This document shows positions 13,070 through 58,205 of a stretch of DNA of 64,000 nucleotides, in pieces; the first letter of the stretch is position 1, and each line of letters begins with the position of its first letter. Both the position numbers and the translations under genes were made by a program. The stretch is taken from the NCBI RefSeq assembly GCF_024298845.1, contig NZ_CP101156.1, positions 2,418,001 through 2,482,000 on the forward strand, read 5' to 3'. Source of the stretch: Natronosalvus amylolyticus (GTDB taxonomy: Archaea; Halobacteriota; Halobacteria; Halobacteriales; Natrialbaceae). The notes under the pieces are model-generated. The model worked only from the letters and a program-made list of their open reading frames with translations. It did no database searches and was not told the origin of the DNA.

Positions 13070-15118
13070 ATGGGATTGTTTACAGGACTCAAAGATAGTA
13101 TCTCTCGCGTCACGGACCGGCTGTTTTCGGATCAGGAGCCAAAGCGAATCGGCATCTACGGGCCGCCAAACGCGGGAAAATGTCTGGCAGAAGGCGAGGA
13201 CGTGCTCCTCGCTGACGGGACGTACGAACCGATCGAATCGCTCTACGAGCGGGTTGCACGAGAAGAAAGCGACCCAGTCGACGTCAGCGACGAACCTCAC
13301 GAACGCTGGCTCGAGTGCAACGAGACGACGATTACCGTCCCGTCTGTGCGCGATGACCTTACAGTCGAGCCGAAGGAAGTGTCACACGTCTTCAGACAGC
13401 GGTACACCGGCCCGATGTACCGAATCAAGACCCGCCTCGGCCGTGAACTCACCGTTAGCCCCGAGCATCCGTTCATCTCGATGACCGCGGAGGGAGTAAC
13501 CGAACTCCCTGCCGAGGACCTCTCCGAGGGGACGGCGGTGGCGACGCTCGGCGAGTACACGCCAACGAGCGCGAACTATTCGCTCAAACCGAACGACGCT
13601 CTGTACGCAGATGGCGGAGCCGTCGTCTACGAATCGACCTACCACAATCCCAAACCGGTCACACCGCTGGAACTCGACCCGGCAGTCGGGCGATTCCTCG
13701 CACTGACGATTGCGGAAGCACAACACGATGCCCGGTCGATCGCCTTTGCGAACGATGACCCGGAACTCAGAGCCGAGTTCGAAGCAACCGCTCAGCGGTT
13801 CGGCATCGAAACGACGGCCTACGAGTACGACGACAAAACACCCATCGTCAAAGCCAACAGCCGTTCGCTCGTCGAGTATCTCAAAAAACTCGACTGTGAA
13901 CCGGCTTGTTCGGCCGAAAAACGGGTTCCACAGTCGATCCTCCTGGCCGACGACGAAACCGTCGCGGCGTTCTTGCGAGCCATGTTCGACTGTGAAGGAA
14001 GCGTCCAAGGAGCAGAGACGGATGCCCGAGGCCGGTATGTTACCATCTCGAGTGCGAGCCGTGAGCTCATCGTCGGGATCCAGATCCTGCTGTTGCGCTT
14101 TGGTATCGTTGGCAAAATCCGCGAGAAACGTCACGACGGAACGGACTACTACGAATTCTGTATCGGACGCAGTGACCAGCACCGGCGGTTCCAGGAGACG
14201 ATCGGCTTCGATTCGGAAGCGAAAGCGGATCGACTCGAGAAACTGTGTGCGGCCGGTTCGAGTCCAAACGTCCATACCCTCCCACTGATGGAGGAACTCG
14301 AGGACGCACGCGACGCCCTCGGAATGACCCAGGGAGCGTTTTACGGCGACAATAAACACGTTGCCAGAATGCGACGCCGGAACAGCATCTCGGTCGATCG
14401 ACTCGAAACGATGGCCGAAACACTCCCGGCTGTCGATGAAACCGAACTCGTACATCACATCGCCGACTCGACGCTCGAGTGGGACGAAGTCGTGTCCATC
14501 GAGACGGTCGACTACGACGGCTACATTTACGATCTGACGGTTGCGGACAACCACACGTTCGCCTCGAGTGAGGGACTGGTCGTCCACAACACGACGTTAG
14601 CCAATCGAATCGCACGTGACTGGACGGGCGACGCCATCGGGACGGAAAGTCACATTCCCCACGAAACACGACGGGCGCGCCGGAAGGAAAACGTCGAAAT
14701 CGAACGCAACGGCAAATCGGTGACCATCGACATCGTCGACACCCCCGGTGTGACGACCAAAGTCGACTACGAGGAGTTCACCGACGAGATGGACAAAGAC
14801 GACGCAATCAGACGCTCTCGAGAGGCGACCGAAGGGGTTGCCGAGGCCATGCACTGGCTCCGCGAGGACGTCGACGGCGTGATCTACGTACTCGACAGCG
14901 CTGAGGACCCGATCACGCAGGTCAACACCATGCTAATCGGCATCATCGAATCGCGGGACCTGCCCGTGTTGATCTTCGCGAACAAGATCGACCTCGAGGG
15001 GTCGAGCGTCAAGCGAATCGAAGACGCCTTCCCCCAGCACAAGACGGTGCCGCTATCGGCCAAAGAGGGAGACAACATGGACGAAGTGTACGAAAACATC
15101 GCGGAGTACTTCGGGTGA
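13070..15118 (+). CDS. oapA: OapA/ArvA Era-like GTPase interrupted by an intein
   Basis: A 682-codon precursor. Residues 1-37 and 508-682 are the GTPase extein (212 residues after splicing); residues 38-507 are an intein. G1 is split exactly as GPPNAGK / TTLANRI. Downstream are G3 DTPGV, G4 NKID and G5 SAK. This is the haloarchaeal origin-associated protein A, also known as ArvA, a small GTPase reported to be needed for extracellular vesicle formation. The host protein cannot bind GTP until the intein is removed, because the K-T pair of the P-loop is separated. It heads an operon with oapB and oapC (3-base and 8-base gaps). Reading frame is intact throughout. Confidence 0.92.
   Translation: MGLFTGLKDSISRVTDRLFSDQEPKRIGIYGPPNAGKCLAEGEDVLLADGTYEPIESLYERVAREESDPVDVSDEPHERWLECNETTITVPSVRDDLTVEPKEVSHVFRQRYTGPMYRIKTRLGRELTVSPEHPFISMTAEGVTELPAEDLSEGTAVATLGEYTPTSANYSLKPNDALYADGGAVVYESTYHNPKPVTPLELDPAVGRFLALTIAEAQHDARSIAFANDDPELRAEFEATAQRFGIETTAYEYDDKTPIVKANSRSLVEYLKKLDCEPACSAEKRVPQSILLADDETVAAFLRAMFDCEGSVQGAETDARGRYVTISSASRELIVGIQILLLRFGIVGKIREKRHDGTDYYEFCIGRSDQHRRFQETIGFDSEAKADRLEKLCAAGSSPNVHTLPLMEELEDARDALGMTQGAFYGDNKHVARMRRRNSISVDRLETMAETLPAVDETELVHHIADSTLEWDEVVSIETVDYDGYIYDLTVADNHTFASSEGLVVHNTTLANRIARDWTGDAIGTESHIPHETRRARRKENVEIERNGKSVTIDIVDTPGVTTKVDYEEFTDEMDKDDAIRRSREATEGVAEAMHWLREDVDGVIYVLDSAEDPITQVNTMLIGIIESRDLPVLIFANKIDLEGSSVKRIEDAFPQHKTVPLSAKEGDNMDEVYENIAEYFG
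13181..14590 (+). mobile_element. Intein in the P-loop of OapA, with LAGLIDADG-type endonuclease domain
   Basis: A 470-residue in-frame insertion. It starts with Cys (CLAEGEDVLLADG, block A), has block B (LTVSPEHPF with the T-x-x-H pattern), and ends with block F (YIYDLTVADNHTF) and block G (GLVVHN) followed by Thr as the +1 extein residue. Inside, FLALTIAEA and FLRAMFDCEGSV match the two LAGLIDADG helices, each keeping an acidic residue, although the first lacks the terminal Gly. So splicing residues look complete, and the homing endonuclease may be active. Base composition is like the host, suggesting an old or within-lineage acquisition. Confidence 0.93.
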
Positions 15119-15121
15119 ACC

Positions 15122-15520
15122 ATGCCTGAAGCTACTAACGCAGACGACGACCGCCGTGACGGCGTCCAGATCGACCTCATCAGCGGGGAGCGAATGGACG
15201 GCATGGCCAGTATGGAAAAGATTCGGATGATCCTCGACGGCGTTCACGACGGCAACATCGTGATCCTCGAGGAGGGACTGACGCCGGACGAAGAGAGCAA
15301 ACTGATCGAGGTGACGATGGCCGAGATCAGCCCGGACGAGTTCAACGGCATCGAAATCGAGACGTACCCGAAATCGAGCACGCGAGATTCCTCGTTGCTG
15401 GGTCGGATCATGGGCAACGACGAGACGCCGAAAAAGCTGACCGTGATCGGGCCGGCAAACCAGATCGAAACCTTGCACAAAGACGAGAACCTCATCAGTG
15501 CGCTTGTCTCGCGGAGTTAG
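15122..15520 (+). CDS. oapB: OapB/ArvB family protein (DUF2073)
   Basis: A 132-residue soluble protein. It begins with a short polar stretch, then GVQIDLISGERMDGM and a regular alpha/beta pattern that includes DGNIVILEEGLTPDEESKL, matching DUF2073. It always accompanies the OapA GTPase in haloarchaea, and its start lies three bases after the oapA stop. The biochemical role is unknown; co-translation with the GTPase suggests a direct partner. No catalytic motif is evident. Confidence 0.88.
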   Translation: MPEATNADDDRRDGVQIDLISGERMDGMASMEKIRMILDGVHDGNIVILEEGLTPDEESKLIEVTMAEISPDEFNGIEIETYPKSSTRDSSLLGRIMGNDETPKKLTVIGPANQIETLHKDENLISALVSRS

Positions 15521-15528
15521 TCAGACGA

Positions 15529-16344
15529 ATGCCACACCAGTGTACCAACTGCGACCGAACGTTTCCCGACGGCTCCAAGGAGATGCTGTCGGGCTGTCCC
15601 GACTGCGGCGGGAACAAGTTCCAGTTCGCGCCAGCCCAGTCCTCGAGTGCAGGCGGAGTGACGACACAGTCACAACCGAAATCGAGTACCGACGAGCGTT
15701 CGCGTGGAATCACCGACGGGCCCCCAGCGGAGTCGACGGCGGCGGGGGCTGATTCCAGTCAGAGCGAGACTGCGTTTCCAGAATGGCCGGATTCGGCCAG
15801 GCGTCCGGAAGACCGAAGCGGGGCCGATGGGCGGGCACCTGACCGGGAGAAGACGGTAGCTGAACACGCAGCACCCGATCGGATTCAGGAACCGGATTCG
15901 GGCGACCAACGAGCACGTGAGCCAGGGGACCAGCGTGAACGTGAATCGAAGGATCGGCGACCAGAGTCATCGAGCGATCAGTCAGTTCTCGATGGGCCTG
16001 TTGGACGCGAACACGACCAGCCCGAACAAGAAGACACGGCGCAGGCCAGTGCCCGGAGCGATATCGTCTCGAGTGACGAACTCCCACCAGTGACCGACAC
16101 ACCGAGTGAACCGGACTCGAGCGACGGCCGCGTCGTCAGCGAACCCGACTCGAACGATGAGCGACCGTCGCTCGAGGAGTTGCGCGAGGAACTCAACGAG
16201 CAGTTCGAGAGCATTAAAATCGTCCGCCCGGGCGAGTACGAACTGAACCTGATGGAGCTGTACAACCGCGAGGAGTACATCGTCTCCTTGCAGGAAGACG
16301 GTCGCTACGTCATCGACGTCCCGGATTCCTGGCGGGACGAGTAG
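15529..16344 (+). CDS. oapC: OapC/ArvC family zinc-ribbon protein
   Basis: A 271-residue protein with three parts: an N-terminal zinc ribbon (CTNC ... CPDCGG, residues 4-25), a long disordered linker rich in Asp, Glu, Ser, Arg and Pro (about 40-215), and a small conserved C-terminal domain (about 216-271) containing IKIVRPGEYELNLMELYNRE. The third gene of the oapABC operon, starting eight bases after oapB. The ribbon may bind nucleic acid or protein; its function is not established. The variable linker fits a tether between two conserved ends. Confidence 0.88.
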   Translation: MPHQCTNCDRTFPDGSKEMLSGCPDCGGNKFQFAPAQSSSAGGVTTQSQPKSSTDERSRGITDGPPAESTAAGADSSQSETAFPEWPDSARRPEDRSGADGRAPDREKTVAEHAAPDRIQEPDSGDQRAREPGDQRERESKDRRPESSSDQSVLDGPVGREHDQPEQEDTAQASARSDIVSSDELPPVTDTPSEPDSSDGRVVSEPDSNDERPSLEELREELNEQFESIKIVRPGEYELNLMELYNREEYIVSLQEDGRYVIDVPDSWRDE

Positions 16345-53116: not shown

Positions 53117-55543
53117 TCAGCTATCTTCCTCGAGCCGTTTCCGAAACCGCTCGAGGCCGAACTCGAGCATATCGGGGCTGACCGGTTGAAACGCTGAATT
53201 ATCGGGGAAAAACGAGCGTACCGAATCCCAGCTATCGCGAGCGTACCGTTCGTCCAGGAGGATACGGACGCCCACGTCATCGGGACTGCGGATAACTCGC
53301 CCGATGGCCTGTCTGGCCTTTCGAACCGCCGGGACAGTGAGCGCGTAGGTAAAACCGTCACCGAACGTCTCGTCGTACGCTCGACGAACGGCTTTCGTGC
53401 GCGGACTCGAGGTGTTGACGATCGGGACGCCACAGACGGCGGCCGCACTCAACCGGTCACCGTGATAATCGACACCCTCAGTGAGCGTCCCCCGTAGACT
53501 CGTCACGAGAATCTTCCCGTCGCCGGCGAAGAACTCGTCTTTGAGCGATTGGGTCGCGTCGTCGCTGCTCGAGGAATCGAGCAAAACTGGCTTCTCAGTG
53601 AGTCGTGCCTCGAGCGTGCTGGCAGCCCATTCGGCCTCGCCGTAACTCGGCATCCCGACCAGGACGTTTCCCGGAAGCCGTGCAATCTGGGCGAGCGCCT
53701 CCGCGTAGGCAGTTCGCGTCGGCGACTCCTCGGCCGGACTGCCACGGTTTTGATACGTGAATTTCGGCAGCGAGACCGCGAAGCTCTCTCGGTTTCGTTC
53801 TGGAAAGTGCAGCCCGTACTGTCGTTCGACTACCGGTCGGTTTTCTTCCCGCTCGAGATATTCGAGCCCCGTCACTTCGGTAAACGCGTCCATGGGTTCG
53901 AGAGTCGCACTCATCAAAATCCCCCCACCGAACGCCGACAGCCTGGACCCAATGGCATCGCTCGGCACGCAGTTGTGTACGGCGAGTCGAGCCGTGTAGG
54001 CCCGACGCCAGGAATCGGCCGGCTCCATCTCGTCCCAGGTTCGCTCGAGTTCGATCTCCCGAAAGTTGGTCGTGTGGTCCCGACGGTACCACTCACCCAG
54101 CAACCGGCCGACAGCGGGCATAGCCCGGGATTTCTCCTCGTCTTCGGCCTCGTTCAGGATCCGCTCGACGATAGCGCCAACCGACTCGGCACGCACCCAG
54201 ACAGCATCGGTGTAGCCTGCTTCGCTGGCCCACACTGACAGCTCGTCTTCAGCCGGTTCGGTCGGCTCTCTCAACGGGATTTCGTCGTCCGTCAAGTCAG
54301 TCAGATCCGACTGCCACCCACGGTGGGTTCGCTCCAGATGCGCCCGAATCCGTCTATCGAGTTCACCACGAAGATCCTGTACGAACTCGAGTGTTCGCTC
54401 GAGTTCCTCGATAGAAACGTCGGTGTCGTTCAGTTCGGCCCGAACGAGGTCGGCATCAGCAGTTTTGGACCCACCCTGCGTCGACCGACCCTCCTGTTCG
54501 AATCGAACCGGCTGGAGGACCCGCGACAGTTCGGTTTCCGCGTCACGGAGGGTCGAATCGGCGACCCCATCGCTTACGAGGTCGCGAACGCGGGGCTCTA
54601 GCATGTGTGCTTCATCACAGACCACGAAGGTCGACGAGTCGAGCAGTGCGCCGGTGAATGCGGCCGTCGTCGTCGGATCGAACGCGTGGTAGTAGTTGCC
54701 GATCACCACCTCGACATCTCCCAGGACAGCCCCCATCACCGAGTGCGGGCAGGTCCCGTGTCGAACCGACTGTGCAACCAGGTCCTCTGGCGTGAGTAAG
54801 CCGGTTTCAGTGACGTCGAACGGGACTGCTTCGAGTGGACTCGCGTCGCTCGCTTCCTCCGGGAGGTCCTCGAGATACTGCGCATAGAACGGACAGTACT
54901 CGACCTCGCTGCCGGCCGGTCCACCCGTATTGTACTCGGGCATGTCGGGTGGATACGGTGTCGGTTCGTCAGCCGTCTCGAGATAGCTGGCACCCCGTGC
55001 ATTTCCAGTGGAACCAGCGGGAGATGAGGCGTTGGCGCTATCGGCCAGTCCGATCTGTTGACTTTTCGCGTTGGCAACGAGAGCGCCAGCGGTCGTCGAC
55101 CCACTCTCTCCGGTCAGGTCTCGCGTGCGCTCGCGCAGGGTTTCACACCGGTCGTAGACGTTGTCGTCGGTGACACCGCCGCGGTTTTCCCGGTTGTACG
55201 GACAGACGTCAGCTTTTCCGACGAGAGTGAGTCCAGATACCGGATTCCATTCGTCAGCGAGGTTCGCGTTGATCGTCTCGAGATCGGTTTCGAACTGACG
55301 CAGTTGCTGTTTCACGCTCGTCAGGACGAACACCCGGTCGTAGTCGGTGTCAGGATTCCGCACGAGGTCGATACCTGCGGTCAGCGCGATCATCGTCTTG
55401 CCAGTCCCGCAGGCTCCTTCGATAACCGTGTAGCCACCCTCTTTGGCAGTCTCAATCGCGGTTTCGATCCCGTCGACTTGCTCGTCGTAGGGTTCGTCGT
55501 GACCGAACACCGCACGCCAGTCCGTCATCGTGCCCGTACTCAT
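53117..55543 (-). CDS. XPD/Rad3-like superfamily 2 DNA helicase with Fe-S cluster
   Basis: An 808-residue 5'-3' helicase. Walker A GACGTGKT (43-50), DEAH box VVCDEAHML, and motif VI QAIGRVIRSPDD identify the XPD/DinG/Rad3 group. Four cysteines (in ADVCPY, DRCETL, VEYCPFY and HGTCPHS) are well placed for the 4Fe-4S domain. A low-complexity Ser/Gly/Ala stretch separates the second and third. It functions in nucleotide-excision repair or recombination. ATG 55543 gives MSTGTMTDW, directly before the Q-motif region. Confidence 0.93.
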   Translation of the reverse strand: MSTGTMTDWRAVFGHDEPYDEQVDGIETAIETAKEGGYTVIEGACGTGKTMIALTAGIDLVRNPDTDYDRVFVLTSVKQQLRQFETDLETINANLADEWNPVSGLTLVGKADVCPYNRENRGGVTDDNVYDRCETLRERTRDLTGESGSTTAGALVANAKSQQIGLADSANASSPAGSTGNARGASYLETADEPTPYPPDMPEYNTGGPAGSEVEYCPFYAQYLEDLPEEASDASPLEAVPFDVTETGLLTPEDLVAQSVRHGTCPHSVMGAVLGDVEVVIGNYYHAFDPTTTAAFTGALLDSSTFVVCDEAHMLEPRVRDLVSDGVADSTLRDAETELSRVLQPVRFEQEGRSTQGGSKTADADLVRAELNDTDVSIEELERTLEFVQDLRGELDRRIRAHLERTHRGWQSDLTDLTDDEIPLREPTEPAEDELSVWASEAGYTDAVWVRAESVGAIVERILNEAEDEEKSRAMPAVGRLLGEWYRRDHTTNFREIELERTWDEMEPADSWRRAYTARLAVHNCVPSDAIGSRLSAFGGGILMSATLEPMDAFTEVTGLEYLEREENRPVVERQYGLHFPERNRESFAVSLPKFTYQNRGSPAEESPTRTAYAEALAQIARLPGNVLVGMPSYGEAEWAASTLEARLTEKPVLLDSSSSDDATQSLKDEFFAGDGKILVTSLRGTLTEGVDYHGDRLSAAAVCGVPIVNTSSPRTKAVRRAYDETFGDGFTYALTVPAVRKARQAIGRVIRSPDDVGVRILLDERYARDSWDSVRSFFPDNSAFQPVSPDMLEFGLERFRKRLEEDS

Positions 55544-55918
55544 TGTCGGTCCTCCATAGCGTTGACGGACCGATCTTGTCGCGCTTTCATTCGTAAAGTA
55601 CTGGGTGGGATGGCACTCGAGAAGTGAACCGACAACAGACTGCCACGGTACATCCAGAACCCACGAACTTCGAGGACTGTTCGAAGCGGTCACGAACTGA
55701 CCGCACTGGTCAGCCGTGTCCCTGTATTCCCTTGTGGCCACCCCAGTGGCCATGTACTATCGTTGTGTCTCGAGATATGAATGTATGGGTAAATTGCACG
55801 TTCTGAGATGACAGCGTCAATAACTCCGACCGCAAGGGTCGGGGTATCCGCCTCGGCCGCCGATGAAACGGGAGAAGAAAACCGAACCGATTTCGCTTAA
55901 AAGTGGTGTGAGTGACCG
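55544..55918. other. Gene-free interval between XPD helicase and hemL
   Basis: About 375 bases. The left half is the helicase promoter and leader. The right part holds a solo IS-end-like hairpin (55824-55870) followed by an A-rich stretch. I see no gene. Confidence 0.5.
55824..55870. repeat. Solo IS1341-type element end
   Basis: A hairpin with CCGACC and GGTCGG arms around GCAAG is followed by TATCCGCCTCGGCCGCCGATG. The same hairpin-plus-tail arrangement with near-identical tail occurs at 19569-19610 beside tnpB. No tnpB remains here, so it is a relic or a non-autonomous element end. Confidence 0.65.
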
Positions 55919-57265: not shown

Positions 57266-57352
57266 GGTATAGTCGGCGCTTTGCGGGCCGACGGCAAAGA
57301 TGTACCGTCCGAGAGTCGGACGCCCGACCCCAGAGAGATGATGTCATCGACT

Positions 57353-57368
57353 CACGACTAAAGTCGTG
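57353..57368. repeat. IS200/IS605-like solo end hairpin
   Basis: CACGACT/AGTCGTG arms with an AA loop are followed by GGGCTTCCTCC. On the minus strand this reads GCCCACGACTTTAGTCGTG, matching the right-end hairpin style of haloarchaeal IS1341-type elements. No transposase is adjacent. Confidence 0.5.
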
Positions 57369-57450
57369 GGCTTCCTCCTTACATTCCTGTGAACCACCAT
57401 GGTCACTATCGTGCTAGTCCCTCGAGGAACCGGCAACTATCTCCGTATGT

Positions 57451-57473
57451 GTTCCAGTGGAAACGAAGGGGTG
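57451..57473 (+). other. ORB motif 1
   Basis: GTTCCAGTGGAAACGAAGGGGTG holds the full dyad TTCCAGTGGAA and the G-string of haloarchaeal ORBs. It is the best match of the set and points rightward. Confidence 0.8.
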
Positions 57474-57550
57474 TTCGAAGGAGTTACTAGATATTTTCGT
57501 CTATTTACTAGAGTGGAAGGAGGAAAAACCCCTAGATTTTGAGATTTGTA

Positions 57551-57580
57551 AACACCCCCACCCCTTCGTTTCGGGTGGAG
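57551..57580 (-). other. ORB motif 2
   Basis: Read on the minus strand, CTCCACCCGAAACGAAGGGG is followed by TGGGGG. It points leftward, so the G-run faces away from the A/T-rich core. Confidence 0.72.
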
Positions 57581-57871
57581 AAGGGAACAAGGGTGGGTGG
57601 GGTGTTGGTGGTTAGAGAGGGGGATTGGGAGATATCAGGGGATGATTTGGGCTCGAGAGGCCGAGAGAAAGAGGATAACGGGAGAATTCGGGCGGTAAGA
57701 GACCGCTAGTAACAGGAAGCGTCTATAGAGAGTTTTCTAGTACTCTCTAGTAACAACAATCAGTTCACCTAGTAACTTCTTGTTTTTGTTGAGGCTACGG
57801 ACCAATTTGTTCTTATCTATAATAAAACCTTCCAGTTCCAAACACCCCCTCCCACCCCCACCTTCGTACTG

Positions 57872-57900
57872 CTCTCCACTCGAAACAAAGGGGTGGGGGG
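57872..57900 (+). other. ORB motif 3
   Basis: CTCTCCACTCGAAACAAAGG is followed by GGTGGGGGG. It points rightward and closes the A/T-rich core from the other side. Confidence 0.78.
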
Positions 57901-58007
57901 CTTCGCAACCTCTATGGTAACAAGCCACATCCATCATTCACCACCCAGTACACTTCTTTTTATCAATCCCTGGACATCGTGTTCGGCTGGTTTTCGGTCA
58001 CGCGACT

Positions 58008-58067: not shown

Positions 58068-58205
58068 GTACTCACAGAGATGCAAGGAGGAGCCCACAAC
58101 TGAACTCGTGAGCCATTGAACGTACATTGACCGTCGGCTCTCGCTCGAGAAAATCAGCCACATCCGGTACACCCATTGGGTCCGATTGTGTACGTACGCG
58201 CAGCT

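Follow-up and report, generated by a model that had tools for sequence, protein, structure and literature searches.

The window, a 64-kb stretch of DNA (G000:C1:2418001-2482000) from a 4.2-Mb genome assembled in five contigs (G000), contains a group of ORB elements at positions 57440-57905. They lie in the divergent spacer between hemL, which encodes a class III aminotransferase (PF00202; 55919-57265, minus strand), and a carbonic anhydrase gene (PF00484; 58176-58964, plus strand), and the naming of these two as the nearest genes in the original prediction was correct. The three strong ORBs of that prediction were confirmed as the sole sites in the window that match at least 13 of the 15 core positions. 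The ORB 15-mer TSNAAACGAAGGGGT, with at most one mismatch, has seven matches in the whole 4.2-Mb genome, three of them at this locus. The outer ORB (57452-57473, plus strand; TTCCAGTGGAAACGAAGGGGTG) matches the core at 15 of 15 positions and has no long G-string. The inner left ORB (57554-57580, minus strand; CCCCCACCCCTTCGTTTCGGGTGGAG; 14/15) and the inner right ORB (57874-57900, plus strand; CTCCACTCGAAACAAAGGGGTGGGGGG; 13/15) both carry a G-string and face each other across an A/T-rich core. This core, a putative unwinding element at 57700-57845 (no strand assigned), was also predicted correctly, with a GC content of 37.7% compared with approximately 60% in the window. Just inside the left ORB is a G-rich element (57590-57602, plus strand), and a C-rich element (57844-57862, minus strand) is located inside the right ORB. 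The former had been described as a degenerate G-rich copy of the ORB; the element itself is real, but its interpretation as the left half of a G-rich inverted repeat fits better. A G-rich inverted repeat of this type is an oriC1 enhancer in Haloarcula hispanica (PMC3936714). The CTAGTAAC repeats were found as predicted at 57706, 57747, and 57769, with an inverted copy at 57483; the rest of the window has none. The CTAG array (57706-57772, plus strand) consists of four sites at 57706, 57737, 57747, and 57769, with spacings of 31, 10, and 22 bp. In addition, four more CTAG sites in G000 lie at 57414-57533, around the outer ORB and outside the inner pair.

We compared the locus with 61 genomes of the family from 29 genera; the window's genus is represented by eight genomes (G000 to G007). 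When the 61 family genomes were scanned with the pattern GAAAYRAAGGGGTGKG in head-to-head arrangement, about one pair per genome was found, and the reversed pattern, which was used as a control, gave almost none. The ORB pair, its orientation, and the CTAG array aligned with the oriC1 of 29 genomes from other genera. The core aligned with the outgroup oriC1 in one orientation only, and the ORBs were conserved. The inner ORBs are 315 to 328 bp apart within the genus, and the sister genus g2 has a spacing of 326 bp. The known oriC1 regions of Hbt. NRC-1 (orc7), Hfx. volcanii (orc1), Har. hispanica (cdc6A), and Nab. magadii (Nmag_1930) share with the window locus the inverted G-string ORB pair, the A/T-rich core, the G-rich inner inverted repeat, the CTAG cluster, and the orientation. 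On this comparison of sequences, we identify the window locus as the conserved haloarchaeal oriC1, orthologous to that of the sister genera. Thus, the evidence supports the original prediction of an origin candidate without a neighbouring orc1/cdc6 gene and allows it to be narrowed to oriC1. According to Wu et al. (2012), oriC1 is conserved in all haloarchaea and is named for the adjacent Orc/Cdc6 (PMC3528665). The window locus has the inverted G-string ORB pair, the A/T-rich region between its members, the orthology, and a cognate orc1 in the genome; in contrast, adjacency to orc1/cdc6 is absent in all eight members of the genus, and oapABC does not lie on the other side. The locus therefore stands as an uncoupled variant of oriC1, lacking orc1 adjacency, which is one of the defining characters. 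It also differs from the known oriC1 regions in its neighbours, hemL and the carbonic anhydrase gene, and in the extra outer ORB. The outer ORB was present in all eight members of the genus, at a distance of 98 to 131 bp from the inner pair, and was not found at the corresponding place in the aligned outgroups, among which L118 alone has an ORB-like site, at -220. This third ORB is a gain of the window's genus.

In archaea, origins are believed to pass down together with the genes of their initiators, and among these pairs oriC1-orc1 shows the strongest conservation. Linkage was assessed using the orc1 gene that matches G000:C1:2622599. In 52 of the 56 assessable genomes outside the genus, orc1 has the ORB pair, or at minimum one member of it, no more than about 3 kb away, and in these genomes oriC1 sits between orc1 and the oapABC operon. 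The link spans the start of the circular record in G034 and G047 and was visible only with a relaxed scan in G035. The four exceptions were three genomes of genus g11, with orc1 approximately 5 to 5.6 kb away, and G041, with orc1 158 kb away. In genus g11 (L125, L126, and L129), a small inversion flipped the orc1-sec11-polD block. G041 (L111 and L112) represents a second uncoupling, in which oriC1 keeps oapABC; two direct ORB-like repeats lie upstream of its orc1, and linkage persists in the sister genomes G014 and G059. The matches listed for nine other families came from 81 genomes, all of them linked, in a few cases via the circular wrap or contig ends, and seven genomes showed no match to the pattern. 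Among the 81, G137 was dropped as a case of uncoupling, as a degenerate ORB pair lies about 1 kb from its orc1.

Within the window's genus, oriC1 was apart from orc1 in all eight genomes. The distance was 147 kb in G000, 235 kb in G001, 205 kb in G002, 193 kb in G004, and 1,344 kb in G007; the drafts G003, G005, and G006 have the two on separate contigs. Because closed or nearly closed assemblies are among the eight, the separation is not an assembly artefact. The original prediction had noted that no orc1/cdc6 gene stands beside the candidate origin, and the initiator gene is indeed missing from its usual place. A search of the genome for the matching gene found it outside the window, at G000:C1:2622599. 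The comparison with sister species, also proposed earlier, extended the uncoupling to the whole genus, and an absence confined to this one assembly is therefore dismissed. The suggested loss of the initiator gene did not hold either: an orc1 of intact length and of the oriC1 type lies 147 kb away, and the gene is present and separate in all eight genomes. There is one such orc1 per genome in the genus, with Cdc6_C winged-helix and Cdc6 lid domains. No ORB pair was found in the upstream regions of orc1 in the genus or upstream of oapA in the window. An ORB-like box is located just before the start codon of orc1 in G000, G003, G007, and many outgroups, and is a plausible autoregulatory site.

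The ancestral gene order was aspK-c9-polD small subunit-sec11-orc1-[oriC1]-oapA-oapB-oapC, in which aspK and sec11 are named by sequence resemblance only. The order orc1-origin-three-gene operon published for Nab. magadii agrees with it. In the window, the displaced ancestral neighbours oapA (13070-15118, plus strand) and oapB and oapC (15122-16200, end approximate, plus strand; outgroup orthologues match PF09846 OapB and PF09845 OapC) occupy about 13.07 to 16.2 kb, 42 kb from oriC1. The operon was mapped in five genomes, and it was also far from oriC1 in the other four, G001, G002, G004, and G007. Since oriC1 is away from both orc1 and oapABC, the origin or its surroundings were rearranged. 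The carbonic anhydrase gene adjoins oriC1 in 8 of the 8 members of the genus and hemL in 7 of 8, the exception being G005, which keeps the carbonic anhydrase side and not the hemL side. In the single fitting orientation of the core alignment, hemL takes the former side of oapA and the carbonic anhydrase gene that of orc1. None of 16 outgroup hemL loci examined had a carbonic anhydrase gene beside hemL. On these loci, simple insertion of oriC1 into a pre-existing spacer between the two genes was rejected, and the present site is a rearrangement junction. At 53120-55753, a helicase gene remains near oriC1 in the window; in many outgroups, its distance from oriC1 is about 10 kb. This position of the helicase gene fits an inversion around the origin as a first step.

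Next, we examined the CTAG array. The arrangement CTAG-N25..28-CTAG-N6-CTAG-N16..19-CTAG was present in 41 of the 61 family genomes, once in each except G011, where it occurs twice on duplicated contigs, and in every match listed it was inside the oriC1 ORB pair. CTAG density was 16.6 to 18.6 per kb in the cores compared with 0.4 to 0.8 per kb in the surrounding 20-kb loci, and in both G000 and G007, the windows richest in CTAG within 400 kb were at oriC1. The pairwise distances between CTAG sites clustered at 10, 20 to 22, 31 to 32, 41 to 42, 52, and 63 bp; these are close to helical repeats and may partly reflect one ancestral arrangement. In the alignment with outgroup oriC1, CTAG columns were 90% conserved, compared with 54% for the other inner columns. 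Within the genus, the corresponding values were 100% and 70%, thereby indicating that the site was still constrained after the move, and such continued constraint argues for a working element. In the 1 kb upstream of orc1, six of the eight genomes of the genus have no CTAG, and the other two have one and three. Because the CTAG sites were kept with the ORBs and are scarce upstream of orc1, the cluster belongs to the origin. In haloarchaea that have an orphan methyltransferase for CTAG, Blow et al. (2016) reported clusters of this motif lying upstream of orc1/cdc6 genes (PMC4752239). The clusters described there and by Ouellette et al. (2018) (PMC5867850) show the same CTAG enrichment at haloarchaeal origins. 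However, they were tied to the start of the orc1/cdc6 gene, where gene and origin coincide, whereas here the cluster is tied to the ORBs with orc1 elsewhere, and the site spacing is fixed. The finding that the array stayed with the ORBs and not with the orc1 promoter resolves this ambiguity in the earlier work. As in a Dam/SeqA-like system, a cluster of an orphan methyltransferase motif is located at the origin. We put forward, only tentatively, a broader proposal for the family: an oriC1 CTAG array with fixed spacing in steps of about 10 bp, belonging to the origin and not to the orc1 promoter, might serve as a control element read by methylation or by a protein, like GATC at E. coli oriC, and the genus might run this origin with its initiator hundreds of kilobases away. 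The Sulfolobus ucm motif was considered as a parallel to the array (PMC12141716) and rejected; the published oligonucleotide has no CTAG, and no kinship is claimed.

Taken as a whole, the locus is very probably a relocated, still-functional oriC1 that is fired in trans by the distant Orc1. The ancestral oriC1 would have moved in the ancestor of the genus, through a rearrangement with breakpoints on both sides, and would now lie in the spacer from which hemL and the carbonic anhydrase gene diverge. Orc1 would diffuse to the site from its far gene (147 kb away in G000), bind the two facing G-string ORBs as well as the additional outer ORB, and load MCM at oriC1, after which the origin would fire. 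We infer roles for the CTAG array and the third ORB as well. Cdc6 proteins can act in trans on origins in Har. hispanica and Hfx. volcanii (PMC3936714). The site is most likely still a chromosomal origin. Cumulative GC skew was calculated for 400-kb stretches of G000 and G007. In G000, the minimum was at oriC1 and not at orc1, and in G007, no turning point was seen at oriC1. As the skew agrees with oriC1 in one genome and not in the other, it was given little weight. A second origin candidate was seen in G000 at C1:428 kb (L004), upstream of a different orc gene and with another repeat type (ACACTYGAC...GGGGTGGG). With this orc-adjacent candidate in the genome, the main role in replication need not fall to oriC1.

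Part of the conservation of the site could stem from recent shared ancestry or from a function outside replication, for example, as an Orc1 titration site. We consider it unlikely that oriC1 is dormant or dead and is kept as an Orc1-binding titration site, with the chromosome replicated from other origins such as that at 428 kb. Haloarchaeal chromosomes can carry dormant origins (PMC4595724), and both the ORB-type repeat region beside an orc gene at 428 kb and the missing skew turn in G007 agree with such a state. However, every element that a working oriC1 has, the A/T-rich core and the G-strings on both ORBs among them, was kept in all eight genomes at the 315- to 328-bp spacing, and these elements would be needless for titration, and the skew minimum of G000 falls at oriC1. 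It is far less probable that the CTAG-rich ORB region is mainly a bidirectional promoter of hemL and the carbonic anhydrase gene with Orc1 as a transcription factor. The divergent spacer is a suitable location, and the ORB-like box before orc1 in many genomes makes Orc1 at promoters plausible; nevertheless, the same element stands beside other genes (oapA/orc1) elsewhere, so that its conservation is not due to hemL, and G005 has the element without hemL beside it.

The remaining alternative concerns IS-like ends, which were found at about 57343-57394 and 58072-58111. They are short, palindromic, and repeated across the genomes of the genus, and no transposase was seen beside the two copies examined (L030 and L037). 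The original prediction that solo IS ends flank the origin was right as to repeated IS-like ends on both sides and failed as to their being the cause of the change. Such ends are present at the oriC1 locus in G000 and G003 and not in G001, G002, G004, and G007, which are nevertheless uncoupled. We thus attach very little probability to the idea that flanking IS ends once moved the origin or removed an orc1 copy here; although the ends lie on both sides in the window, orc1 is present elsewhere as one copy per genome. The IS-like ends are a recent local feature and not the cause of the uncoupling.

A relocated oriC1 served by a distant Orc1 can be compared with two known systems. In Natrinema sp. 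J7, the predicted oriC10 is not beside cdc6, and the vector pFJ6, which has no cdc6 gene, replicates (PMC5350488). These origins are likewise haloarchaeal, lack an adjoining cdc6, and are apparently served in trans, but they were not presented as oriC1, rest on the prediction for one strain, and show no evolutionary displacement. In Har. hispanica oriC5-cdc6H (PMC4441112), the origin likewise lies about 123 kb from a fragment of its initiator; that origin is broken and non-functional and its initiator is split, whereas both orc1 and the origin are whole in the window's genome. A genus with a stably split oriC1-orc1 pair shows that the linkage is not required. The split offers a natural test of whether expression of Orc1 beside its origin matters for copy control, and it sorts the features of the origin (the ORBs and the CTAG array) from those of the gene (the ORB-like box in the promoter). 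Origin finders that search only beside cdc6 genes will miss oriC1 in this genus.

The displaced oapA of the window also carries an insert of approximately 470 amino acids, which is intein-like and lies within the P-loop (GPPNAGK | CLAEGE...VVHN | TTLAN). An oapA in a 700-amino-acid open frame was also seen in G003 and G005, and oapA was split in G045 (L105).
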